From Nocardioides sp. 1609 (GTDB lineage Bacteria; Actinomycetota; Actinomycetes; Propionibacteriales; Nocardioidaceae), in the NCBI RefSeq assembly GCF_004522105.1, contig NZ_SPUJ01000004.1, forward strand, positions 248,001 to 312,000: a DNA stretch of 64,000 bases. Reading direction: 5' to 3'. The first letter of the stretch is position 1. Every line of letters begins with the position of its first letter. A program made the position numbers and the translations under genes. This document shows positions 35,499 to 47,669 of this stretch, piece after piece. The notes below the pieces were generated by a model that searched no databases, had not been told where the DNA came from, and was given only the letters and a program-made list of their open reading frames with translations.

Positions 35499-36380
35499 TC
35501 AGCGCTGTCCGCGCGCCAGCCCTCGGGCGATGCCGAGCAGGGCCTCGCCCGCGTGGTCGAGGTGGCCGTCGCGCCAGAGCAGGTGGACGGCGGCGCGGGT
35601 CGGCGGGTCGAGGCGGGCCAGGCGGGCGCCCTGGGCGCCGGCCTCGCCGGCCATCCCCTCGGGCAGCAGGGCGGCGCCCGCGCGGGCCAGGACCATCGGG
35701 ACGACGCTGGCGACGTGGGCGGTCTCCACGGCGAGGTCGGGCGGGAGGCCCGCGGCCTCGAGCCGCTCGTCGAGCAGGGTGCGCAACGCGCTGCCGCGCG
35801 GGGTGCAGATGAGGCCGTGCGAGGCGATCTCGGCGAGGTCGACGGTGAGGCCGTGGTCGGTGCCGGGGGGCAGGACGCCGACGAGCTCGACGTCGACCAC
35901 GTGGAGGCTGGAGACGTGGTCTCCTGGCGGCGCGCCGGACACCAGGCCGAAGTCGACCTCGCCGGCGCGCACCTGCTCGACGACGACGGTGCGGTTGGCC
36001 GGGTCGGTCACCTGGAGCTGCAGCCGCGGCATCAGCTGGCGCAGCTCACCGACCACCTGCACCAGGGGGTCGATCGCCCACATCGTGTTGGTCACCACGC
36101 GCAGCTGGGCGAACCCGTCGTCGCCGGCCCCGCGGACGGCGCCCGCGGCCTGCGCGAACGAGCGCAGCGTGCGCCGCGCCGGCCGCACCAGTGCGTGACC
36201 GGCGGGCGTCAGCCGGACGCCGCGGCCGTGCCGCTCGAAGAGCCGCTCGCCGAGCTCGTCCTCGAGGGTGCGCACGGCGTAGGACAGCGACGGCTGGGCG
36301 ATGCTCAGCACGCGCGCCGCGCGGGTGAAGCTGCCGGCGTCGGCGATGGCCAGGAAGAACTCGAGCTGCCGACGTTCCAC
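35499..36380 (-). CDS. LysR-family transcriptional regulator
   Basis: A 293-aa LysR protein. The N-terminal winged HTH is VERRQLEFFLAIADAGSFTR, ARVLSIAQPSLSYAVRTLED, LGERLFERHGRGVRLTPAG. The substrate-binding domain follows (LRVVTNTMWAIDPLV, VDFGLVSGAPPGDH, HGLICTPRGSALRTLLDERLEAAGL, VPMVLARAGAALLPEGMA). The GTG at 36380 gives the canonical N-terminus. It reads in the same direction as the TauD-like gene downstream, whose promoter has a LysR box. The Hsp20 stop is 15 bp upstream. Confidence 0.88.
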   Translation of the reverse strand: MERRQLEFFLAIADAGSFTRAARVLSIAQPSLSYAVRTLEDELGERLFERHGRGVRLTPAGHALVRPARRTLRSFAQAAGAVRGAGDDGFAQLRVVTNTMWAIDPLVQVVGELRQLMPRLQLQVTDPANRTVVVEQVRAGEVDFGLVSGAPPGDHVSSLHVVDVELVGVLPPGTDHGLTVDLAEIASHGLICTPRGSALRTLLDERLEAAGLPPDLAVETAHVASVVPMVLARAGAALLPEGMAGEAGAQGARLARLDPPTRAAVHLLWRDGHLDHAGEALLGIARGLARGQR

Positions 36381-36394
36381 CGTCGGGTCCCGGG

Positions 36395-36907
36395 TCAGTC
36401 GTCGCGCGCGTCGACCGCGCGCGACGTCCTGCCGCGGGAGCGGTCGGCCAGCGCGATCCGGGTGCCCACGCCCCGGACGGCCGCGCCCCGGACCGTGATC
36501 TCCACCAGGCCGTCGTCGAACTCGGCGCCGAGGTCGTCGGCCTCGGTGCCCTCGGGCAGCGTGACGACCCGCCGGAACTCGCCGTGGAACCGCTCGCGGA
36601 CGTAGAAGACGACGTCGTCGTCCCCGTCGCCGGCCGCGGACCGGCGCGCCCCCGACACGGTGAGCACCCCGTGGTGGAACTGGAGGTGGACGTCGTCGGG
36701 GTCGACGCCGGCGAGCTCGATGCGGATGACGACGTCGTCGCCGCGGGCGAGGATGTCGGTCGTGGGCAGCCACGCCGAGGCGTGGGTGCGCTCGGACGCC
36801 TCGCTCCCGAGCTCGCTGCCGTGGACGCCGAGGGTGCGCATCCGGCTCAGCTCGCTGACGAAGTCGGTGATGCCCTCGAAGGGGTTGCGACGTGAGGTCG
36901 GCGGCAC
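36395..36907 (-). CDS. Small heat-shock protein (Hsp20/alpha-crystallin)
   Basis: A 170-aa Hsp20. The N-terminal PPTSRRNPFEGITDFVSELSRMR is followed by the alpha-crystallin domain (WLPTTDILARGDDVVIRIEL, DDVHLQFHHGVLTVSGAR, FYVRERFHGEFRRVVTLPEGTEAD, GLVEITVRGA). The tail is basic. GTG 36907 follows AGGAGCAACCC. It lies 53 bp after the binding-protein gene, so it may share its transcript; this would link protein folding and osmolyte uptake under stress. Confidence 0.9.
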   Translation of the reverse strand: MPPTSRRNPFEGITDFVSELSRMRTLGVHGSELGSEASERTHASAWLPTTDILARGDDVVIRIELAGVDPDDVHLQFHHGVLTVSGARRSAAGDGDDDVVFYVRERFHGEFRRVVTLPEGTEADDLGAEFDDGLVEITVRGAAVRGVGTRIALADRSRGRTSRAVDARDD

Positions 36908-36960
36908 GGGTTGCTCCTGGTGGCTGGTCGGGACGGGCGGGTGGGGCGGGACGGGGCTGG

Positions 36961-37902
36961 TCAGTCGAGGTCGAGCGGCGTCAGCAGGTCGACGCTGCGC
37001 AGGTGGTCGCGGGCGACGTCCTCCTCGTCCTCGCCGGCGGTCACCTGCGCGTTCATCGCCACCATCGCATCCTCGCCGAGGGTGCGGTTGACCGCCGCGA
37101 CGACGGCCATGAACGCGTCGGCGTCGATGGAGTCGAGCTTCTGCTGGCCCACCACCATGACGACGTTCTGGGAGCCGAACAACCGCTCCGGGTCCTCGAG
37201 CAGGGTGTAGGCGCCCGACTCGAGCTCGGGGTCGGTGGTGAAGGCGTCGGCCGCGTCGGCGTCCTCGGCGTCGAGGGCGGCGTACTGCTCGCCGAGCTCG
37301 GTCGGCTGGAAGGTCACGTCCTCGAGCCCGTAGACCTCCCGCAGGCCCTCGAGCCCGAGCTGGAGGGACTCGAACTCCGCCCGCGCGGACAGCCGGACGC
37401 CGCCCTCGACGCCGGCGAGGTCGCCGATCGAGGTGAGTCCGTTGGCCTGGGCGTACTCCCGGGTGACCGCGATCGCGTCCTTGTTCTCGAACGGCGTCAT
37501 GGTGCTCATCACCATGTCCTGGCCGGCGTAGAAGTCGGCGGCGCGGTCGTAGGTCTCCTCGGGGTCGAGGCCGCTGACCTCCTCGCCCGCGACGACCGAG
37601 AGCACGGTGCCGGTGTAGGCGACGTAGCCGTCGATGTCGCCGTCCTTCAGCGACTGGTCGAGCTCCTCGGCAGGGCCGACGCCCTTGCGGAGGTCGACGG
37701 TGTAGCCGTTCACGGCGAGCGCCTGGCGCCACAGCTCGCCGAGGATCCGGCCCTCGGGGAACTCCTGCGTGCCGATCCGGATGCGCAGCGTCGCACCCTG
37801 CGGCTGCTGCGACGCGTCACGCTCGGAGCTCTCGCCGCACGCCGAGAGCAGGGTCGCGCCCAGCAGCGCCGCCACCAGTGCGGCGAGCGGGCGGCGGTTC
37901 AC
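36961..37902 (-). CDS. Glycine-betaine/choline-type substrate-binding lipoprotein (OpuAC/OsmX-like)
   Basis: A 313-aa lipoprotein, lipobox LLSAC. The mature part is the OpuAC/OsmX type: RIRIGTQEFPEGRILGELW, NGYTVDLRKGVGPAEELDQSL, DIDGYVAYTGTVLSVV, DAADAFTTDPELESG, LFGSQNVVMVV, AVVAAVNRTLGEDAM. Such proteins normally feed an ABC permease and ATPase, but none is adjacent. Instead its GTG overlaps the stop of a BCCT secondary transporter gene (GTGA). Likely ligands are betaine, choline or carnitine. Confidence 0.85.
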   Translation of the reverse strand: MNRRPLAALVAALLGATLLSACGESSERDASQQPQGATLRIRIGTQEFPEGRILGELWRQALAVNGYTVDLRKGVGPAEELDQSLKDGDIDGYVAYTGTVLSVVAGEEVSGLDPEETYDRAADFYAGQDMVMSTMTPFENKDAIAVTREYAQANGLTSIGDLAGVEGGVRLSARAEFESLQLGLEGLREVYGLEDVTFQPTELGEQYAALDAEDADAADAFTTDPELESGAYTLLEDPERLFGSQNVVMVVGQQKLDSIDADAFMAVVAAVNRTLGEDAMVAMNAQVTAGEDEEDVARDHLRSVDLLTPLDLD

Positions 37903-39473
37903 CGGTCGACCTCCACGGGGGGCGCGGACGCGGGCACGACGTCCGTGCGTGGCCCGGCTGGGGGATCGCCCCGTTCGGCGCGGGCGTCCTCCCGCAGCGC
38001 CTTCATCCAGCAGTAGGCGACGGCGACGAGCACGAACGTGAACGGCACCGATCCGAGGACGGCGGCCTGTTGCAGCGCGACCAGACCGCCGACGAGCAGC
38101 ATGGCGCAGGCGATGCCGCCCATCAGCACGCCGAGGATCACCACGACCGCCTTCGACGGCGCGAGCGACCCGCGGGAGGCCATCGTGGCCATCACGATGC
38201 TGGCGGCATCGGCGCCGCTGATGAAGAACAGCGCGATCAGCAGCACGCACAGTGCCGAGCTGACCACCGGCAGGGGCAGCGCGTCGAGCGCGGTGAACAG
38301 CGACAGCTCGGGCGTCGCGAGCGAGCCGAGGATGTCGGCGCGGCCGCTGCTCTGCAGCTCGATCCCGGTGCCGCCGACGACGGCGAACCACAGGAAGCCG
38401 AAGCCGGTGGGCGCCGCGACCACGCCGAGGACGAACTCGCGGATGGTGCGCCCGCGCGAGATCCGCGCGACGAACATCCCGACGAACGGGGCCCACGAGA
38501 CCCACCAGGCCCAGTAGAAGATCGTCCAGCTCGCCATCCACTGCTCGTCGCCGACGCCGGTCTGCAGCGACATCGGGAGCACCTGGATGACGTAGTTGCC
38601 GATCGACTCGATGCCGTTGGAGATCACCAGCACCGTCGCGCCGCCGACCACGGCGAAGAACACGAACAGGCCGATGGTCGCGAGCGAGCCGAGGTTGGCG
38701 AGGAGGTTGATGCCCTTCTCGACGCCGGACGTCGCCGACAGCAGGAACAGTGCGGTGACCCCGACGATGATCGTCACCGCGACGGCGTTCGACTTCTCCA
38801 CGTCGAAGAGGTACTCGAGCCCGCTGTTGAGCTGGAGGCCGTTGAGGCCGAGGGCGGTCGCCGTCCCGAAGAGCGTGGCGACGATGGCGAGCGCGTCGAC
38901 GATCCGGCCGATCGGTCGCTCGTGGGCCTTCGGGCCGAGGATCGGCGACAGCGTCGAGCTCACCAGCGTCGGCAGGTTCTTGCGGTAGCTGAAGTAGGCC
39001 ATCGCGCCGCCCATGATCGCGTACATCGCCCAGCCGTTGAAGCCCCAGTGGAAGTAGGTGTAGCGCAGCGCGGTGAGCGCCGCCTCCTCGCTCTGCGGCT
39101 CGGCCAGGCCGTGCGGCGGGGCGCTCCAGTGCGAGACCGGCTCGGCGATCCCGTAGAAGAGCAGCCCGGCGCCGAGCCCGGCGGCGAACATCATCGAGAC
39201 CCACGAGAACGTGCCGAACGCCGGCCGCGAGTCGTCCGGGCCCAGGCGGGTGCGGCCCCACGGGTGCACGACCAGGAAGATGCACAGCGCCAGCGAGCCG
39301 AAGGCCAGCAGCACGAACGACCAGCCGAAGTTGCCGATCACCCAGTCGAGGCTGGTCTTCATCACCGTGCCGAGGCTGGTCGGTGCGGCGAGCCCCCAGC
39401 CGACGAAGCCGGCGATGAGGAGGGCCGACCCCCAGAACACGCCCGGATCGACACCCTTGATCCACCTGTTCAT
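37899..39473 (-). CDS. BCCT-family betaine/choline/carnitine transporter
   Basis: A 524-aa membrane protein with twelve predicted helices. Family signatures include FGTFSWVSMMFAAGLGAGLLFYG, the periplasmic/aromatic core TIFYWAWWVSWAPFVGMFVARISRGRT (quoted as YWAWWVSWAPFVG), GFNGWAMYAIMGG, and FFISGADAASIVMATM. It imports zwitterionic quaternary amines by Na+ or H+ symport. ATG 39473 is chosen over the ATG at 39491 because GGAGG lies 8 nt before it. The C-terminal tail is short and hydrophilic, and it overlaps the binding-protein gene. Confidence 0.92.
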   Translation of the reverse strand: MNRWIKGVDPGVFWGSALLIAGFVGWGLAAPTSLGTVMKTSLDWVIGNFGWSFVLLAFGSLALCIFLVVHPWGRTRLGPDDSRPAFGTFSWVSMMFAAGLGAGLLFYGIAEPVSHWSAPPHGLAEPQSEEAALTALRYTYFHWGFNGWAMYAIMGGAMAYFSYRKNLPTLVSSTLSPILGPKAHERPIGRIVDALAIVATLFGTATALGLNGLQLNSGLEYLFDVEKSNAVAVTIIVGVTALFLLSATSGVEKGINLLANLGSLATIGLFVFFAVVGGATVLVISNGIESIGNYVIQVLPMSLQTGVGDEQWMASWTIFYWAWWVSWAPFVGMFVARISRGRTIREFVLGVVAAPTGFGFLWFAVVGGTGIELQSSGRADILGSLATPELSLFTALDALPLPVVSSALCVLLIALFFISGADAASIVMATMASRGSLAPSKAVVVILGVLMGGIACAMLLVGGLVALQQAAVLGSVPFTFVLVAVAYCWMKALREDARAERGDPPAGPRTDVVPASAPPVEVDR

Positions 39474-39608: not shown

Positions 39609-40349
39609 TCAGCGCTCGACGAGCGTCAGGTCGAAGGAGTAGAGCTCCGGCCGGTAGGCGTGCCGGCCGAACTCGACGGCCTGGCCCGCGTCGTCGTACG
39701 CCGTGCGCTGCATGGTGAGCAGCGGCGAGCCGCGGCGCTCGCGGAGCCGGGTGGCCTCGGCGGTGGTGGCGCGTCGGCAGCCGATGCGCTGCCGGGCGAC
39801 CCGGATCAGGATGCCCGAGCGGCGCAGCGTCGCGTAGAGGCCGTGGTGCTCGAGGTCGGCGCCGGCAAGGTCGATCAGGCCGATCGGGAGGTAGTTGCGC
39901 ATCAGGGCGAGCGGCTCGTCGCCGACGAAGCGCAGTCGCTCCAGCGACCAGACCTCGGCACCCTCGGCGACCCGGAGCTCCTGGGCGGTCTCCTCGTCGG
40001 CGGGGGAGCGGCGCAGGTGCAGGATCTCGGTGCGCGGCTCCTGGCCGGCGCGGGCGAGGTCGTCGTACAGGCTGGTCAGCTCGACCGAGCGACGGACCTT
40101 GCCGTGCACGACCTGGGTGCCGACGCCGCGCTTGCGCACGAGCATCCCCTTGTCGACGAGGGTCTGGATCGCCTGGCGCATCGTCGGGCGGGAGAGGCCG
40201 AGGTCGCGGGCCAGGTCGACCTCGTTGTCGATCCGGTCGCCCGGCGCGATCGCGCCGGAGAGGATGGCCGCCTCGAACTGCTCGGCCACCTGGAAGTACA
40301 ACGGGATCGGGCTGGAGCGGTCCAGGGTGATCGCGGGGCGGCCGGGCAT
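39609..40349 (-). CDS. GntR/HutC-family repressor of the inositol operon (probable IolR)
   Basis: A 246-aa GntR-type regulator. Winged HTH: IPLYFQVAEQFEAAILSGAI, PGDRIDNEVDLARDLGLSRP, TMRQAIQTLVDKGMLVRKRGVGTQVV (in segments). Then a UTRA effector domain (SLYDDLARAGQEPRTEILHL, EGAEVWSLERLRFVGDEPLALMRNYLP, SPLLTMQRTAYDDAGQAVEF). Divergent from the inositol genes across a 146-bp region full of TGTCA half-sites, which is the normal setting of an inositol-responsive repressor. Confidence 0.88.
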   Translation of the reverse strand: MPGRPAITLDRSSPIPLYFQVAEQFEAAILSGAIAPGDRIDNEVDLARDLGLSRPTMRQAIQTLVDKGMLVRKRGVGTQVVHGKVRRSVELTSLYDDLARAGQEPRTEILHLRRSPADEETAQELRVAEGAEVWSLERLRFVGDEPLALMRNYLPIGLIDLAGADLEHHGLYATLRRSGILIRVARQRIGCRRATTAEATRLRERRGSPLLTMQRTAYDDAGQAVEFGRHAYRPELYSFDLTLVER

Positions 40350-40369: not shown

Positions 40370-40460
40370 ATGTCAGGACCTTTTAATGTCAGGACAATTG
40401 CTTGACAGGGCGGTGTGACTGTCGACACACTCGTCGGAGTCGAGCATATGTCACGACATA
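40370..40460. promoter_or_regulatory. Divergent gntR / inositol-operon control region
   Basis: ATGTCAGGAC occurs twice in direct repeat (40370-40379 and 40386-40395). TTGACA at 40402-40407 could be a -35 element for the rightward operon. A perfect palindrome TATGTC-AC-GACATA lies at 40447-40460. The shared TGTC half-sites suggest binding by the GntR-type repressor. The palindrome sits 36 bp before the first inositol gene, a typical repressor location. Confidence 0.65.
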
Positions 40461-40495
40461 CCGCGCCGCACGGCCTCCCCGAGAGAAGGTCCCGC

Positions 40496-41389
40496 ATGAC
40501 CCTCCGTCCCCACTCCCGCATCGCCGGAGCCCCGATCTCGTGGGGCGTCTGCGAGGTGCCCGGCTGGGGTCTGCAGCTGCCGGCCGAGCGCGTCCTGTCG
40601 GAGATGCGCGAGCTCGGCCTGCGGGCCACGGAGCTCGGGCCCGACGGGTTCCTCCCCGACGAGCCGCAGGCGAGGGCAGCGCTCCTCTCGGGCTTCGGGC
40701 TGCAGGCGGTCGGCGGGTTCGTGCCGGTCCTGCTCCACGACGCCGGCCACGACCCGCTGCCCGAGGTCGACGCCTTCATCGACGGCTGCCTCGCCGCCGG
40801 CGGCGCGACCGTGGTGCTGGCCGCGACCACCGGCCAGGACGGGTACGATGCCCGCCCGGTCCTCGACGACGTGCAGTGGAAGACCCTGCTCACCAACCTC
40901 GACCGGCTCGCCGACCACGCCCGCGAGCGCGGCGTCGTCGCCGTCGTCCACCCCCACATGGGCACGATGGTCGAGGGGGCCGACGACGTGCAGCGGGTCC
41001 TCGAGGGCTCGCACATCGGGCTCTGCGTCGACACCGGCCACCTCGTCGCCGCCGGCGCCGACCCTGTCGCGATCACCCTGGCGCACACCGCGCGCGTCGG
41101 CCACGTGCACCTCAAGGACGTCGACGCCGCGCAGGCCGCCCGCGTGCTGGCCGGTGAGATCTCCTTCTCCGACGCGGTCCGTGAGGGTCTGTGGACGGTG
41201 CTCGGCGAGGGCTCGGTCGACGTGCTCGCCATGGTCGAGGCGCTCGAGGGCGTCGGCTACCAGGGCTGGTACGTGCTCGAGCAGGACCTGATGCTGAGCG
41301 GTGAGCCCGAGGGCGAGGGGCCGGTCGCCGACGTGCGGCGCTGCCTGTCCTACGTCGAGGCCGCGCTCGAGCGGGCGGCGCGCGCGTGA
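40496..41389 (+). CDS. Sugar isomerase/dehydratase TIM barrel (IolE/IolH-like)
   Basis: A 297-aa AP-endonuclease-2-type TIM barrel. It opens IAGAPISWGVCEVPGW with LGLRATELGPDGFLPD, then VVAVVHPHMGTMVEGADD, IGLCVDTGHLVAAGADP and GHVHLKDVD, and ends GYQGWYVLEQD; these supply the metal ligands (Glu, His, Asp). In inositol operons this family contains IolE (2-keto-myo-inositol dehydratase), IolH and IolI. Position as first gene and the operon lacking another candidate dehydratase favour the IolE role, but IolH cannot be excluded. ATG 40496 follows GAGAGAAGG. Confidence 0.82.
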   Translation: MTLRPHSRIAGAPISWGVCEVPGWGLQLPAERVLSEMRELGLRATELGPDGFLPDEPQARAALLSGFGLQAVGGFVPVLLHDAGHDPLPEVDAFIDGCLAAGGATVVLAATTGQDGYDARPVLDDVQWKTLLTNLDRLADHARERGVVAVVHPHMGTMVEGADDVQRVLEGSHIGLCVDTGHLVAAGADPVAITLAHTARVGHVHLKDVDAAQAARVLAGEISFSDAVREGLWTVLGEGSVDVLAMVEALEGVGYQGWYVLEQDLMLSGEPEGEGPVADVRRCLSYVEAALERAARA

Positions 41390-42375
41390 GCCACCCCGAC
41401 CCCGCCGACACCCCCTTCGAGCTGGTGACGATGGGCCGCGTCGGCGTCGACATCTACCCGCTCCAGGTCGGCGTCCCGCTCGAGGACGTCACGTCGTTCG
41501 GCAAGTACCTCGGCGGCAGCTCGACGAACGTCGCCGTCGCGGCCTCCCGCCTCGGTCACCGCGCCGCCACGATCACCCGCACCGGCGACGACCCGTTCGG
41601 CCGGTTCGTGCACCGCGCGCTCCGCGGCTTCGGCGTCGACGACCGCTGGGTCACCGCGGTCGACCACCTGCCCACCCCGGTCGTCTTCTGCGAGATCTTC
41701 CCGCCCGACGACTTCCCGCTCTACTTCTACCGGTTCCCCACCGCCCCCGACCTCGAGATCCACGCCGAGGAGCTCGACCTCGACGCGATCGCCGCGGCCG
41801 ACGTCTTCTGGACGACGGTCACCGGCCTGTCCCGCCAGCCCAGCCGGGCCGCGCACCTGGCCGCCCTCGCCGCCCGGTCGGCCCGCTCGACGAGCGGGCG
41901 GGGCGGCACCACCGTGCTCGACCTCGACTACCGCCCGATGTTCTGGGACTCCGAGGCCGAGGCCACCGCCGCCATCGGCGAGGCGCTGCCGCACGCCACG
42001 GTCGCGGTCGGCAACCGCGAGGAGTGCCGGGTGGCGGTCGGCGAGACCGAGCCGCAGGCCGCCGCCGCCGCCCTGCACGCCGCCGGCGTCGACCTCGCCG
42101 TCGTCAAGCAGGGACCCGACGGCGTGCTCGGCAGCCGCCGGCACCCCGACGGCCGGATCGAGCAGGTCGTCGTCCCGCCCGTCCCGGTCGACGTCGTCAA
42201 CGGGCTCGGCGCGGGCGACGCCTTCGGCGGCGCCCTCGTGCACGGCCTGCTCGCGGGGCTCGACCTCCGTGACACCCTCACCCTCGCGAACGGTGCCGGC
42301 TCCTACGTCGCCGGGCAGCTCTCCTGCGCCGACGCGATGCCCACCCTCACCGAGCTCACGGAGTACCTCTCATGA
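41386..42375 (+). CDS. iolC: 5-dehydro-2-deoxygluconokinase
   Basis: A 329-aa PfkB-family kinase. FELVTMGRVGVDIYPLQVGVPLEDV is the specific IolC opening; FGKYLGGSSTNVAVAASRLG contains the first PfkB signature, and NGLGAGDAFGGALVHGLLAG the second, with catalytic Asp278. It phosphorylates 5-dehydro-2-deoxygluconate. GTG start overlaps the previous stop and its own stop overlaps the next gene (ATGA). Confidence 0.93.
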   Translation: MSHPDPADTPFELVTMGRVGVDIYPLQVGVPLEDVTSFGKYLGGSSTNVAVAASRLGHRAATITRTGDDPFGRFVHRALRGFGVDDRWVTAVDHLPTPVVFCEIFPPDDFPLYFYRFPTAPDLEIHAEELDLDAIAAADVFWTTVTGLSRQPSRAAHLAALAARSARSTSGRGGTTVLDLDYRPMFWDSEAEATAAIGEALPHATVAVGNREECRVAVGETEPQAAAAALHAAGVDLAVVKQGPDGVLGSRRHPDGRIEQVVVPPVPVDVVNGLGAGDAFGGALVHGLLAGLDLRDTLTLANGAGSYVAGQLSCADAMPTLTELTEYLS

Positions 42376-43277
42376 CTGCCCCCACGCGCGTCACCCCCGA
42401 CGACGTCCGCCGGATCGTCGAGACGCGCGTCGGCGACCCCGGACGGATCGCCGGTCTCGCGGCCGCCCGGCAGCAGCCGACCGGTCTCGTCGGCTCCACC
42501 GGCCGGCTGATGCTGATCGCCGCCGACCACCCGGCCCGCGGCGCGCTGCGCGCCGGCGACGACCCGCTCGCCATGGGGAACCGGCTCGAGCTGCTCGACC
42601 GGATGGTCCGCGCGCTCGCCCGGCCCGGCGTCGACGGCGTCCTCGGCACCGCCGACGTCCTCGAGGACCTGCTGCTGCTCGGCGCCCTCGACGGCAAGGT
42701 CGTGGTCGGCTCGATGAACCGCGGCGGCCTGGCCGGCAGCGCGTTCGAGATCGACGACCGGTTCACCGGCCACGACGCCGCGGGGATCGCCGCGGCCGGC
42801 TACCAGGGCGGCAAGATGCTGATGCGCATCGACCCGGAGGACCACGCGACGGTCCGCACGCTGGAGGCCTGCGCGCACGCGGTCGGTCAGCTCGCCGAGC
42901 GCGGCCTGATGGCCATGGTCGAGCCCTTCCTCTCCTACCGCGACCCGGCCGGGCCGGGCGGCCGGGTGCGCAACCTGCTCACCGCCGAGGCCGTCGTCCG
43001 CTCCGCCACCGTGGCCGCGGGGCTGGCGGCGACCTCGGCCCACACCTGGCTCAAGCTGCCGGTGATCGACGACATGGAGCCGGTGCTCGCCGCCACCACC
43101 CTGCCGGTGCTGCTGCTCGGCGGCGAGGTCGCGGCCGACCAGGACGCCCAGCTCGCCACCTGGCGCAAGGCGCTGGCCAACCCGGTCGTGCGCGGCATGG
43201 TCGTCGGCCGGTCGCTGCTCTTCCCGCCCGGCGGCGACGTCGAGGCCGCCGTCGACGCCACCGTGGAGATGATGTGA
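42372..43277 (+). CDS. Cgl0159-family (beta/alpha)8 aldolase-like protein of the inositol pathway
   Basis: A 301-aa TIM-barrel protein of the Cgl0159 type, named from the Corynebacterium inositol cluster. Segments: VGSTGRLMLIAADHPARGAL, GVDGVLGTADVLEDLLLL, VVGSMNRGGLAGSAFEIDDR, GGKMLMRIDPED, MAMVEPFLSY, HTWLKLPVID and PVLLLGGEV. The Lys in KMLMRID or TWLKLP is a candidate Schiff-base residue. It occupies the place of IolJ (6-phospho-5-dehydro-2-deoxygluconate aldolase), which is otherwise absent. Enzymatic assignment is inference. Confidence 0.82.
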   Translation: MTAPTRVTPDDVRRIVETRVGDPGRIAGLAAARQQPTGLVGSTGRLMLIAADHPARGALRAGDDPLAMGNRLELLDRMVRALARPGVDGVLGTADVLEDLLLLGALDGKVVVGSMNRGGLAGSAFEIDDRFTGHDAAGIAAAGYQGGKMLMRIDPEDHATVRTLEACAHAVGQLAERGLMAMVEPFLSYRDPAGPGGRVRNLLTAEAVVRSATVAAGLAATSAHTWLKLPVIDDMEPVLAATTLPVLLLGGEVAADQDAQLATWRKALANPVVRGMVVGRSLLFPPGGDVEAAVDATVEMM

Positions 43278-44182
43278 GCAGCCCCGCACCCGACCTCGGC
43301 CTCGTGGTCCGCGACGGTGAGTCCGCCCGCGGGCCGTGGGTCCTCGACATCGACCCCGAGCGGGCCGGGTGGGGCCACAGCGGGCTCCGGGTCCTCGCCC
43401 TCGACCCCGGCGCCGAGCACACCTTCGCCACCGGCGACAGCGAGGTCGTCGTCCTGGCGCTGGCCGGGTCGGCGACCGTCACGGTCGACGGCGCGAGGTT
43501 CGAGCTCGTGGGCCGGGCCTCGGTCTTCGCCGGCCCGAGCGACGTCGTCTACGCGCCCCGCGACGGCGAGGTCACCGTCGCCAGCGCCGCGGGCGGCCGG
43601 TTCGCGCTCTGCGCCGCCCGCTGCGAACGGCGCCTCGCGCCGGTCCACCTGCCCGCCGCCGACGTCCCGGTCGAGCTGCGCGGCGCCGGACGGGCCAGCC
43701 GCCAGGTGCACAACTTCGGGGTGCCCGGCGTCCTCGACGCCGACCGGGTCATCGCCTGCGAGGTACTCACGCCCGGCGGCAACTGGTCGTCGTGGCCGCC
43801 GCACAAGCACGACGAGGAGCGCCCCGTCGAGGACCGGGGTGGGGAGACCCTGCTGGAGGAGATCTACTACTTCGAGGTCGCGGACGGACCCGCCGCCGCC
43901 GGCCCCGGCATCGGCTTCCAGCGGGTCTACGGCCACGCGGACGCCGACATCGACGTCACCGCCGAGGTACGCACCGGCGACACCGTGCTGGTGCCGCACG
44001 GCTGGCACGGTCCCTCGGTCGCCGCCCCCGGCTACGACCTCTACTACCTCAACGTGATGGCCGGTCCCGGCGCCGAGCGGGCCTGGCGGATCTGCGACGA
44101 CCCCGCCCACACCTGGGTCCGCGACGCGTGGGCCGGCGAGGAGATCGACCCCCGGCTCCCCTTCGGGGAGGAGGCGCGATGA
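43274..44182 (+). CDS. iolB: 5-deoxy-glucuronate isomerase
   Basis: A 302-aa bicupin of the IolB family. The second cupin holds the metal site: GGNWSSWPPHKHDEE, EEIYYFE, and DTVLVPHGWHGPSVAAPGY. YYLNVMAGPG is a family signature, as is the C-terminal ICDDPAHTWVR. It isomerises 5-deoxy-glucuronate to 2-deoxy-5-keto-gluconate. GTG start overlaps the stop of the aldolase-like gene; the next gene overlaps by ATGA. Confidence 0.94.
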   Translation: MSSPAPDLGLVVRDGESARGPWVLDIDPERAGWGHSGLRVLALDPGAEHTFATGDSEVVVLALAGSATVTVDGARFELVGRASVFAGPSDVVYAPRDGEVTVASAAGGRFALCAARCERRLAPVHLPAADVPVELRGAGRASRQVHNFGVPGVLDADRVIACEVLTPGGNWSSWPPHKHDEERPVEDRGGETLLEEIYYFEVADGPAAAGPGIGFQRVYGHADADIDVTAEVRTGDTVLVPHGWHGPSVAAPGYDLYYLNVMAGPGAERAWRICDDPAHTWVRDAWAGEEIDPRLPFGEEAR

Positions 44183-46164
44183 CCACCCGGCTCACCGTGG
44201 CCCAGGCCCTCGTGCGCTTCCTGGAGGCGCAGCGCGTCGAGCGCGACGGCGTCCGGACGCCGTTCTTCACCGGCTGCTGGGGCATCTTCGGCCACGGGAA
44301 CGTCGCCGGCGTCGGCCAGGCGCTGCTCCAGCACGAGGTCGCCGGCGGCCGGCTGCGCTACCTGCAGGGCCGCAACGAGCAGGCGATGGTGCACGCCGCC
44401 GTCGGCTACGCCCGGCACCGCGACCGCACGGCGGCGATGGCCGTCACCGCCTCCGTCGGCCCCGGCGCCACCAACATGCTCACCGGGGCCGCGCTCGCCA
44501 CGATCAACCGGCTGCCCGTGCTGCTGCTGCCCGGTGACACCTTCGCCACCCGCGTCGCCCAGCCGGTGCTGCAGGAGCTCGAGTCGCCGACCGCCGGCGA
44601 CGTGTCGGTCAACGAGGCGTTCCGGCCGGTCTCGGCGTACTTCGACCGCGTCGACCGCCCCGAGCAGCTCGCCTCGGCGCTGCTCAACGCCACCCGCGTG
44701 CTCGTCGACCCGGCCCTGACCGGCGCCGTCACGATCGCGCTGCCGCAGGACGTGCAGGCCGAGGCGCACGACTGGCCCGACGAGCTCTTCGCCGAGCGCA
44801 CCTGGCACCTCGCGCGCCCGGTGCCCGAGCCGGCCGCCCTCCACCGTGCCCTGGAGGTGATCCGCGGCGCCCGTCGCCCGCTCGTCGTCGCCGGCGGCGG
44901 CGTGCTCTACAGCGGCGCGGACGCCGCCCTGCGCGCCTTCGCCGAGGCGACCGGCATCCCCGTCGCCGAGACCCAGGCCGGGAAGGGGTCGCTGCCCCAC
45001 GACCACCCGCAGGCGGTCGGCGCGATCGGGGCCACGGGCACCACGGCCGCCGACGCGCTGGCGAACGACGCGGACGTCGTCATCGGGATCGGCACCCGCT
45101 ACAGCGACTTCACCACCGCCTCCCGCACGGTCTTCGCCGAGGGCGCGCGGTTCGTCAACGTCAACGTCTCGGCCTTCGACGCCCACAAGCTCTCGGCCAC
45201 GACCGTCGTCGCCGACGCCCGCGAGGCCGTCGTCGCGCTGACCGCCGCCCTGGCCGGCCCCGACGGCTGGACGGCGCCGCCCGAGCACACCGCCCGCGCC
45301 ACCGCGCTCGCGCAGGAGTGGGACCGGATCGTCGAGACGGCGTACGCCGGCCCCGCGACCACCGCCACGGGTGACCGGCCCCACGACGGGCGACTCGTCC
45401 AGTCGCAGGTGATCGGCGTCGTCAACGAGACCACCGACCCGCGCGACGTCGTCGTCTGCGCGGCCGGCTCGATGCCCGGCGACCTCCACAAGCTGTGGCG
45501 CACCCGCGACCGCAAGGGCTACCACGTCGAGTACGGCTTCTCCTGCATGGGCTACGAGGTGGCCGGCGGGCTCGGCATCAAGATGGCCGCGCTCGACGAG
45601 GTCGAGGCGGGCCTGGCCCGCGACCGCGACGTCGTCGTCATGGTCGGCGACGGCTCCTGGCTGATGATGAGCACCGAGCTGGTCACCGCCGTCGCCGAGG
45701 GCGTCAAGCTCATCGTCGTCCTGGTGCAGAACCACGGCTTCGCCTCCATCGGAGCGCTGTCGGAGTCGCTCGGCTCCCAGCGCTACGGCACCCGCTACCG
45801 CCGGCGGACGGCGTCCGGGCTCGACGGCGACCTGCTGCCGGTCGACCTGGCCGCGAACGCCGCCAGCCTCGGCGCCGACGTGCTGCGCGCCGGGACGCTC
45901 GACGAGCTGCGCGACGCCGTCCTGGCCGCCAGGGCGTCGACCCGCACCACCGTCATCCACGTCGAGACCGACCCGCTCGTGCCCGCGCCCGACAGCCCCG
46001 CGTGGTGGGACGTGCCGGTCGCCGAGGTCTCCGAGCTCGCCTCCACGCAGGAGGCGCGTGCGGCCTACGAGAAGCACAAGGGCGACCAGCGCCACCACCT
46101 GACCCCTGCCCCGGCACCCGCCGTCGAGCCCGACCGGGCGCACCAGCCGAAGGACCCCGCATGA
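44179..46164 (+). CDS. iolD: 3D-(3,5/4)-trihydroxycyclohexane-1,2-dione hydrolase
   Basis: A 661-aa thiamine-diphosphate enzyme. The catalytic Glu67 is in GRNEQAMVHAAVGYAR; the central domain has VIRGARRPLVVAGGGVLYSGA; the C-terminal domain has the ThDP motif MVGDGSWLMMSTELVTAV with VQNHGFASIG. FFTGCWGIFGHGNVAGVGQA marks IolD rather than acetolactate synthase. It opens the ring of trihydroxycyclohexanedione to 5-deoxy-glucuronate. Length normal for the family. Coupled by ATGA to iolB and iolA. Confidence 0.95.
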   Translation: MTTRLTVAQALVRFLEAQRVERDGVRTPFFTGCWGIFGHGNVAGVGQALLQHEVAGGRLRYLQGRNEQAMVHAAVGYARHRDRTAAMAVTASVGPGATNMLTGAALATINRLPVLLLPGDTFATRVAQPVLQELESPTAGDVSVNEAFRPVSAYFDRVDRPEQLASALLNATRVLVDPALTGAVTIALPQDVQAEAHDWPDELFAERTWHLARPVPEPAALHRALEVIRGARRPLVVAGGGVLYSGADAALRAFAEATGIPVAETQAGKGSLPHDHPQAVGAIGATGTTAADALANDADVVIGIGTRYSDFTTASRTVFAEGARFVNVNVSAFDAHKLSATTVVADAREAVVALTAALAGPDGWTAPPEHTARATALAQEWDRIVETAYAGPATTATGDRPHDGRLVQSQVIGVVNETTDPRDVVVCAAGSMPGDLHKLWRTRDRKGYHVEYGFSCMGYEVAGGLGIKMAALDEVEAGLARDRDVVVMVGDGSWLMMSTELVTAVAEGVKLIVVLVQNHGFASIGALSESLGSQRYGTRYRRRTASGLDGDLLPVDLAANAASLGADVLRAGTLDELRDAVLAARASTRTTVIHVETDPLVPAPDSPAWWDVPVAEVSELASTQEARAAYEKHKGDQRHHLTPAPAPAVEPDRAHQPKDPA

Positions 46165-47669
46165 GCGACCTCCCCGTCCACGACCACTGGATCGACGGCA
46201 CGCCCACCGCCGGCACCGGGCAGGAGCGCCTCGGCGACGTCTTCGACCCGGCCACCGGGCGGGTCCGCAGCCGGGTCCGCCTGGCCGGCGTCGCCGACGT
46301 CGACGCCGCCGTGGCCGCGGCCCGCTCCGCCGCGGTCACCTGGGCCGAGACGTCGGTGACCGCCCGCTCCCGCGTCATGTTCACCTTCCGCGAGCTGCTG
46401 GTGCAGCACGAGGACGAGCTGGCCGCGGTGATCTCGGCCGAGCACGGCAAGACCCTCGACGACGCCCGCGGCGAGGTGGTCCGCGGCCGCGAGGTCGTCG
46501 AGTTCGCGTGCGGCATCCCGCAGCTGCTCAAGGGCGACTTCAACGACCAAGTCTCGGCCGGCGTCGACTCCCACTCGTTCCGGCAGCCGCTCGGCGTCGT
46601 CGCCGGCATCACGCCGTTCAACTTCCCGATCATGGTGCCGCTGTGGATGCACCCGATCGCGATCGCGTGCGGCAACACCTTCGTGCTCAAGCCGTCCGAG
46701 CGGGTGCCCGGCGCCTCCGACCTCGTCGCCCGGCTCTACCAGCGGGCCGGCCTGCCCGACGGCGTCTTCAACGTGGTGCACGGCGACAAGGTCGCGGTCG
46801 ACGCGCTGCTCGAGCACCCGGACGTCGACGCGGTCTCGTTCGTCGGCTCCACGCCGATCGCGCGCCACGTCCATGAGGGCGCCAGCCGCACCGGCAAGCG
46901 CGTGCAGGCGCTCGGCGGCGCGAAGAACCACGCCGTCGTGATGCCGGACGCCGACCTCGACTTCGCCGCCGACCACGTCGTCGCGGCCGGCTACGGCTCG
47001 GCCGGGCAGCGCTGCATGGCGATCTCCGCCGTCGTCGCGGTCGGCCCGGCCGCCGACACCCTCGTCGACAAGATCCGCGAGCGCACCGTCGACCTCACGG
47101 TCGGACCGGGCAGCCGGGCCGGCGTCGACATGGGCCCGGTCATCACCCGCGCCTCCCGCGACCGGGTCGTCGACTTCGTGGGCCAGGCCGAGGACGCCGG
47201 CGCGAAGGTCGTCGTCGACGGTCGCGACCTGGTGGTCGAGGGTCACGAGGGCGGCTTCTTCGTCGGCCCCACCCTGGTCGACCACGCCACCACCGCGATG
47301 TCGGTCTACACCGAGGAGATCTTCGGCCCGCTGCTCACCGTCCTGCGCGTGGCGACCCTCGACGAGGCGATCGCGCTGGTCAACGCCAACCCCTTCGGCA
47401 ACGGCACCGCCGTGTTCACGTCGTCCGGTGAGGTGGGTCGCTCCTTCCAGAGACGCGTCAAGGTCGGCATGATCGGGGTGAATGTGCCGGTCCCGGTCCC
47501 GATGGCCTTTCATTCCTTCGGTGGGTGGAAGGACTCGATGTTCGGCGACCACCACATGCACGGCCCCGAGGGGGTCCGGTTCTACACGCAGGCCAAGGTG
47601 GTCACCACGCGGTGGCCCCACGTGAGCGAGGAGTCGCTCGCCCAGCTCAACTTCCCGACGGCACAGTGA
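46161..47669 (+). CDS. iolA: (Methyl)malonate-semialdehyde dehydrogenase (acylating)
   Basis: A 502-aa CoA-acylating aldehyde dehydrogenase of the MmsA/IolA type. [40 protein letters not shown] and [17 protein letters not shown] (catalytic Cys285) identify it, with [20 protein letters not shown] at the C-terminus, a feature of the MMSDH group. It converts malonate semialdehyde to acetyl-CoA and CO2 at the end of the pathway. ATG overlaps the iolD stop by 4 bp. Confidence 0.94.

Follow-up and report, generated by a model that had tools for sequence, protein, structure and literature searches.

An OpuAC-type lipoprotein gene overlapping a BCCT carrier gene in Nocardioides: a candidate substrate-capture subunit of a secondary transporter

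Solute-binding proteins are textbook parts of ATP-binding cassette (ABC) importers, and to our knowledge the known carriers of the BCCT family work alone. A locus of Nocardioides sp. 1609 raises the question whether the two can be combined. Within the 64,000-nucleotide stretch that was analysed (the window; contig NZ_SPUJ01000004.1, positions 248,001 to 312,000), the gene of a BCCT-family transporter is followed on the minus strand by that of an OpuAC-type binding lipoprotein and then by that of the small heat-shock protein Hsp20. The first two genes overlap in the letters GTGA. From this overlap, and from the lack of ABC permease and ATPase genes nearby, the original prediction had proposed a BCCT carrier assisted by a binding protein. 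Coordinates, reading frames and overlap all held, and in our reading of the window genes no ABC permease or ATPase was seen beside the binding protein, the flanks being formed by LysR and GntR/UTRA regulators. As judged from sequence comparisons, we narrowly favour the view that the lipoprotein serves the BCCT carrier as an accessory subunit for substrate capture.

To assess conservation of the pair, 149 genomes from the same family were searched. At E 1e-10 the binding protein has relatives in 128 of them, and close ones (66-100% identity) in only 7. All seven lie directly behind the gene of a BCCT of at least 75% identity; the 23 distant relatives that were fetched (about 30-38% identity) all adjoin ABC permeases. 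Close BCCTs were found eight times (78-100% identity, the next best reaching 48%), with the binding protein at seven of the loci. At 22 fetched loci of less similar BCCTs neither a binding protein of the window kind nor Hsp20 occurred within 1.5 kb, and at two of them a ProX-like gene belonging to an ABC cluster precedes the BCCT gene. Ten loci were obtained from 84,980 species scanned: eight of the window clade, all paired, and two of planctomycetes (31% identity), which adjoin ABC permeases. Since two of the eight share identical junction letters with two of the seven, they probably represent the same species, and after merging them 14 distinct clade BCCT loci were counted. The binding protein is present at 13 of these, and at each of them a start codon shares a four-base overlap with the BCCT stop. 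Distances between the BCCTs and between their binding proteins are correlated (r 0.85, Mantel p 0.0002, 12 loci, omitting L051, the most truncated one). Because the overlap is conserved in 13/13 loci, a status as mere chance neighbour was rejected for the binding protein; the pairing is more than chance.

Around the other clade copies, no permease match was found in 1.5 to 5 kb a side, save at L042, where the pair stands behind an ABC permease and that cluster's own, different OpuAC gene. The L042 BCCT, 77% identical to the window BCCT, was found in a metagenome bin labelled Acidimicrobiales, a placement that may be due to gene transfer or a misplaced contig. At L042 and in three Nocardioidaceae genomes (L125, L133, L134), an ABC permease and ProX-like genes lie directly before the BCCT gene, with ABC and BCCT uptake genes side by side; in G565 and several family members a BCCT gene lies near an ABC cluster in a different arrangement. 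Hsp20 comes next after the binding protein at 11/11 clade loci extending that far. The stress unit that had been suggested was recovered as a conserved gene group (12/12 clade loci of sufficient length), with a changed order in G531, where a contig end carries a BCCT tail followed by Hsp20 and then by a binding protein of 46% identity.

The pairing was also observed with other binding-protein subtypes. PF02028 was matched in 27 of 110 phylum-wide genomes, giving 37 full-length BCCT genes besides that of the window genome. Four of these (G575, G594, G584 and G534) are followed within 300 bp by an OpuAC domain on the same strand; by our own estimate, with about four OpuAC genes per genome, ∼0.005 such pairs are expected by chance. 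Neither a permease (tblastn, two permease queries) nor an Hsp20 match was found around these four pairs. The binding proteins of G594 and G584 (type B) presumably resemble E. coli ProX, judging by what we take to be the Trp-site motifs. Among 396 genomes, type B was matched at 22 places in 13 genomes (E 1e-30). The closest 11 (52-100% identity, 11 genomes, 5 families) all lie just behind a same-strand BCCT gene, and in seven of them the start codon falls within 13 bases before the BCCT gene end; the other 11 places, some being second copies near a pair and some lying elsewhere, were not counted as pairs. In G534 (type C) the binding-protein start overlaps or touches the BCCT stop, and in G575 (type D) the two genes are 3 bases apart. 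In total, four subtypes from several families are paired with a BCCT. G534, a single contig from another family, carries a ProVWX-like ABC cluster that includes a separate binding protein, of a different subtype; a closer OsmU-kind permease for the paired binding protein was not found there, only one more, distant permease match.

Further arrangements of OpuAC genes were noticed. A phylum search with the window binding protein (E 1e-36) matched 6 of 396 genomes: the window genome, G531, three with the gene beside permeases, and G597 with the gene beside a kinase-like one. The G597 protein, of the OpuAC type and 39% identical to that of the window, starts where the kinase-like gene, read by eye as a sensor histidine kinase, ends; permease and BCCT matches were absent within the 13 kb examined. 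One gene at L106 and one at L107 combine OpuAC with SBP_bac_3, ligand-gated-channel and ion-channel domains, the filter reading TTVGYGD, and each of these genes adjoins a type B pair. By its domains, the product is perhaps a GluR0-type K+ channel that senses betaine; if so, the entry of betaine would be linked to the release of K+ during osmotic stress. OpuAC-fused K+ channels were not mentioned among the literature matches listed, in a literature that was barely checked.

Table 1. Genes and sites of the window, ABC operons of the same genome, and further loci named in the text
Feature	Location	Strand	Family or basis
BCCT-family secondary transporter, 524 aa, ATG start	37899..39473	-	PF02028
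OpuAC-type solute-binding lipoprotein, 313 aa, GTG start	36961..37902	-	PF04069
GTGA, BCCT stop and binding-protein start	37899..37902	-	sequence
Lipobox L19-S20-A21-C22 (LSAC) of the binding protein	37837..37848	-	translation
Hsp20 small heat-shock protein, 170 aa, GTG start	36395..36907	-	PF00011
GntR/UTRA regulator, next to the unit on its upstream (BCCT) side	39609..40349	-	PF07702/PF00392
LysR regulator, downstream of Hsp20	35499..36392	-	PF03466/PF00126
myo-Inositol catabolism cluster, upstream of the unit	40415-47669		judged by eye
C10 ABC operon: permease, ATPase, permease, binding protein
C11 ABC operon: ATPase, two permeases, binding protein
G531: BCCT tail, Hsp20, binding protein	L109 1491-2924	-
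G585: BCCT, Hsp20	L111 5748-9254
G076: BCCT, Hsp20	L052 1501-3536
G597: OpuAC gene and kinase-like gene	L129 6111-7061, 7061-8989	-
OpuAC-channel fusion	L106 4464-6683	+
OpuAC-channel fusion	L107 8933-11896	-

The features of the window are summarized in Table 1. The BCCT matched PF02028 over 485/485 positions (E 2.4e-167, 557.7 bits, cut-off 27) and TIGR00842 with 456.5 bits (cut-off 407.55), the binding protein PF04069 over positions 3-256 of 257 (E 1e-39), and Hsp20 PF00011 (E 4.1e-13, 49.7 bits, cut-off 20.8). GGAGG precedes the ATG of the BCCT gene and stands 7 nt ahead of the binding-protein GTG; the Hsp20 GTG, separated from the binding-protein stop by 53 bases, is preceded by AGGAGCAACCC. 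The lipobox Cys is present in 9/9 clade rows of the binding-protein alignment. A shared-motif search upstream of the BCCT genes revealed no 9-mer common to more than 4 of 14 stretches.

Which ABC systems are available to the binding protein in the window genome? PF02028 was matched only once, by the window BCCT, and PF04069 four times, by the window protein, by two proteins of ABC operons and by one weak match. The two operons, C10 and C11, lie elsewhere in the genome; both are of the OpuC/OsmU kind, and each carries its own binding protein. Their ATPases were recognised by eye from the Walker A stretch rather than by family search.

The window binding protein was modelled with AlphaFold2 from 11 sequences (predicted local distance difference test score 88.4, predicted template modelling score 0.81). 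Among the matches listed, the model corresponds to AfProX/OpuBC/EgtUC-type proteins (Z 28-32, 20-29% identity), including 7txl (Z 30.5, root-mean-square deviation (rmsd) 3.6, 269 residues aligned), 3ppn (Z 31.6, rmsd 2.0, 265 aligned) and 3mam (Z 31.5, rmsd 2.2, 267 aligned). In the model the protein keeps the fold of cluster F-III quaternary-amine binding proteins, which it has in common with the OpuC/OsmU/EgtU importers; it differs from these in lacking an adjacent permease or ATPase and in having half of the aromatic cage replaced. In EgtUC this cage consists of F293, Y341, Y419 and Y443, and the residues for ergothioneine are G244, K242 and R379 (PMC9732360). In an alignment to EgtUC, Y96 stands at F293 and F221 at Y419, whereas D142 is found at Y341 and Q245 at Y443, so that no four-aromatic cage is formed. 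The ergothioneine positions are likewise changed (F48 at G244, Q46 at K242, L180 at R379). Since key pocket residues differ, both plain betaine and ergothioneine, bound in the EgtU manner, were rejected as ligand assignments for the window protein. All 12 pocket positions examined are invariant in 13 clade rows, one truncated row having gaps at two of them, compared with 43% of positions 38-309 as background, which indicates a pocket under constraint. Q46 and T99 distinguish the clade from the ABC-linked relatives, and N140 and L180 from most of them. ProX of Mycobacterium tuberculosis is likewise an OpuAC-family protein reported to lack the aromatic cage, and its reported ligands are polyphenols, not betaine (PMC5894108); in contrast to the window protein it belongs to an ABC operon, and the cage likeness is one of description, not of aligned pockets.

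On the carrier side, the window BCCT resembles BetP, BetT and OpuD in its full-length BCCT match and in the Trp/Tyr motifs of transmembrane segments (TM) 4 and 8. These motifs, FHWGFNGWAMY and FYWAWWVSWAPFVG, are kept across the clade with minor changes, and we take them to hold the substrate-site positions of BetP. Apart from its pairing with a binding protein, it differs from those carriers in TM3, where GLGAG replaces GMGIG in 14/14 clade rows and in 0/69 other rows, a few genes being entered twice among the latter. GMGIG is retained in the BCCTs of types B, C and D, apart from one of 10 type B rows, which has GLGIG. By sequence, the binding proteins of these types keep predicted quaternary-amine pockets, with four aromatics at the EgtUC cage positions in types C and D and, in type B, the presumed motifs mentioned above. 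The window clade departs in both partners, with D142, Q245 and L180 in the pocket and GLGAG in the BCCT. A canonical binding protein thus accompanies a canonical carrier and both depart together, which fits a shared ligand, as far as a covariation among only four types can indicate.

Extracellular-loop conservation was 0.795 in the window BCCT clade and 0.642 in an unpaired clade of like divergence, the cytoplasmic loops reaching 0.795 in both; loop borders were set by hand from what we take to be the BetP topology. The difference between extracellular and cytoplasmic loops was +0.020 in the window clade and -0.176, -0.090 and -0.080 in three other clusters. Relative to the TM segments, the extracellular loops of the two paired clusters ranked first and second of five (-0.044 and -0.115, compared with -0.136, -0.162 and -0.239), where the controls are imperfect: one of nine rows comprises seven genes, of which two were entered twice and three adjoin ABC clusters, and one of six rows includes a gene near an ABC cluster.

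One clade member lacks the binding protein. In G076, the clade BCCT (80% identity) is joined directly to Hsp20 by an ATGA overlap, and the other PF04069 genes of this genome fall outside the window clade. In the BCCT tree, rooted at the midpoint, G076 groups with L039 (87/64 support) within a 13-member branch (99/97), to which the paired L042 is sister. Given this position, loss of the binding protein is the simpler reading, the BCCT having been retained without its partner. At otherwise invariant sites, 3 of 4 private changes of G076 fall in extracellular loops, compared with 9 of 45 in the other 13 BCCTs (Fisher p 0.04; a first count leaving out TM1 gave 0.017; both post hoc). This excess is only suggestive. 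In G585, too, Hsp20 comes after the BCCT gene without an intervening binding-protein gene, and an OpuAC gene lies convergent behind Hsp20.

How might the pair work? The lipid anchor would hold the binding protein on the external face of the membrane of this monoderm bacterium, where it would bind its substrate, close, and pass the substrate by direct contact to the BCCT from the extracellular side. The BCCT, recognising the same ligand, would then carry the substrate inward on an ion gradient. Translational coupling would keep the amounts of the two proteins near each other, and Hsp20 would be encoded on the same stress-linked transcript. The BCCT is probably able to work alone, so that its partner would raise affinity or capture at low substrate concentrations and would not be obligatory.

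Several observations weigh against such an accessory subunit. The clade is rarely met (at E 1e-45, in 2 of 394 genomes from across the class), and all recurrences seen lie within Actinomycetota. An OpuAC neighbour was annotated at 0/3 plasmid BCCT loci of Deinococcota and Pseudomonadota, and for plasmids outside Actinomycetota no record was common to both searches (the best 60 of 2,036 and the best 60 of 394). No BCCT-binding-protein fusion was found at 10 loci picked for long open frames, which was not a systematic search. The other paired cluster, whose 11 rows comprise ten of type B and a single one of type C, showed the lowest difference between extracellular and cytoplasmic loops among the five (-0.202). 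In G076, the direct joining of BCCT and Hsp20 means that the binding protein is dispensable there. D142 and Q245 occur in 23/23 ABC-linked relatives, including the C11 binding protein of the window genome, and hence mark a wider subfamily rather than the pairing with a BCCT. Finally, an OpuA-family permease is present in 22/22 genomes checked (21 with pairs and G076), which leaves a shared ABC core possible in general. In Pseudomonas, several binding proteins share one ABC core. The shared pocket residues and the widespread permeases, together with the two ABC operons of the window genome, would suit an orphan binding protein that feeds one of the two OpuC/OsmU-type importers and adjoins the BCCT gene only because the two uptake routes are regulated together. 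We consider this unlikely, because C10 and C11 both come with a binding protein already, those ABC-linked relatives that were fetched are distant, the overlap is kept over 13 loci, the pairing recurs with other subtypes, and the closed genome G534 has no permease of the paired subtype.

The binding protein could also have a sensing or gating role, towards the BCCT or in signalling, in which it reports or buffers an outside solute without handing it over. The OpuAC gene that meets the end of a kinase-like gene in G597 and the OpuAC-channel fusions beside two type B pairs are in line with this, but the window unit contains neither kinase nor channel, and gene order and overlap are with the transporter; such a role appears distinctly improbable. 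Mere co-expression of stress proteins from one operon, the BCCT and the binding protein being physically and functionally unlinked, would account for the BCCT-Hsp20 arrangements of G076 and G585 and for the changed order in G531. However, the overlap joins exactly the BCCT and binding-protein genes in 13/13 loci, and pairs of other subtypes exist, the four from the phylum sample having no Hsp20 match around them, which makes this explanation quite unlikely as well. The predicted binding-protein-assisted BCCT was thus supported in part: the pairing is conserved and recurs with binding proteins of unlike kinds, and none of the ABC systems is a clear user of the binding protein; on the other hand, the predicted pocket is not a betaine cage, one clade member does without the binding protein, and permeases occur in all genomes checked.

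Binding-protein-dependent secondary carriers are known from other families. TRAP and TTT were named as such in 2016 (PMC4921485); like the proposed system, they combine a binding protein with an ion-driven carrier (PMC12344293), each from other families than those considered here. TAXI-GltS of Bordetella pertussis (BP0403/BP0402) was proposed as a further case in 2025 (PMC12344293). It shares with the window system a binding lipoprotein that is coupled in translation to a classical secondary transporter rather than to the partner it usually has, further occurrences across organisms, and a carrier family mostly working alone, and its coupling, too, was deduced from adjacency, overlap and recurrence (PMC12344293). 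GltS was modelled as an elevator carrier, and its TRAP-TAXI-type binding protein forms dimers and contains additional domains; gene fusions are known, and binding of glutamate has been measured (PMC12344293). The proposed window system differs in its BCCT carrier and in its plain ABC-type OpuAC protein, no fusion having been found at the 10 loci inspected.

What would the pairing mean for these carriers? BCCT carriers have the LeuT fold, and the pairing would therefore be new in the kind of carrier. In the open-licence literature searched, mostly at the level of listed matches, no BCCT system with a binding protein was found. The authors of the TAXI-GltS study ask whether an elevator mechanism is needed and note that further classes would test this (PMC12344293). 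A LeuT-fold BCCT with a coupled binding protein would be a test case for this requirement. We suggest tentatively, inclining slightly to the side of doubt, that BCCTs of Actinomycetota have several times recruited unlike OpuAC subtypes and would represent the first binding-protein-assisted LeuT-fold carriers, which would show that a binding protein can serve a secondary transporter without an elevator mechanism. The four subtypes and the one natural absence in G076 offer ready comparisons. If the proposal is true, the annotation of orphan OpuAC genes would change.

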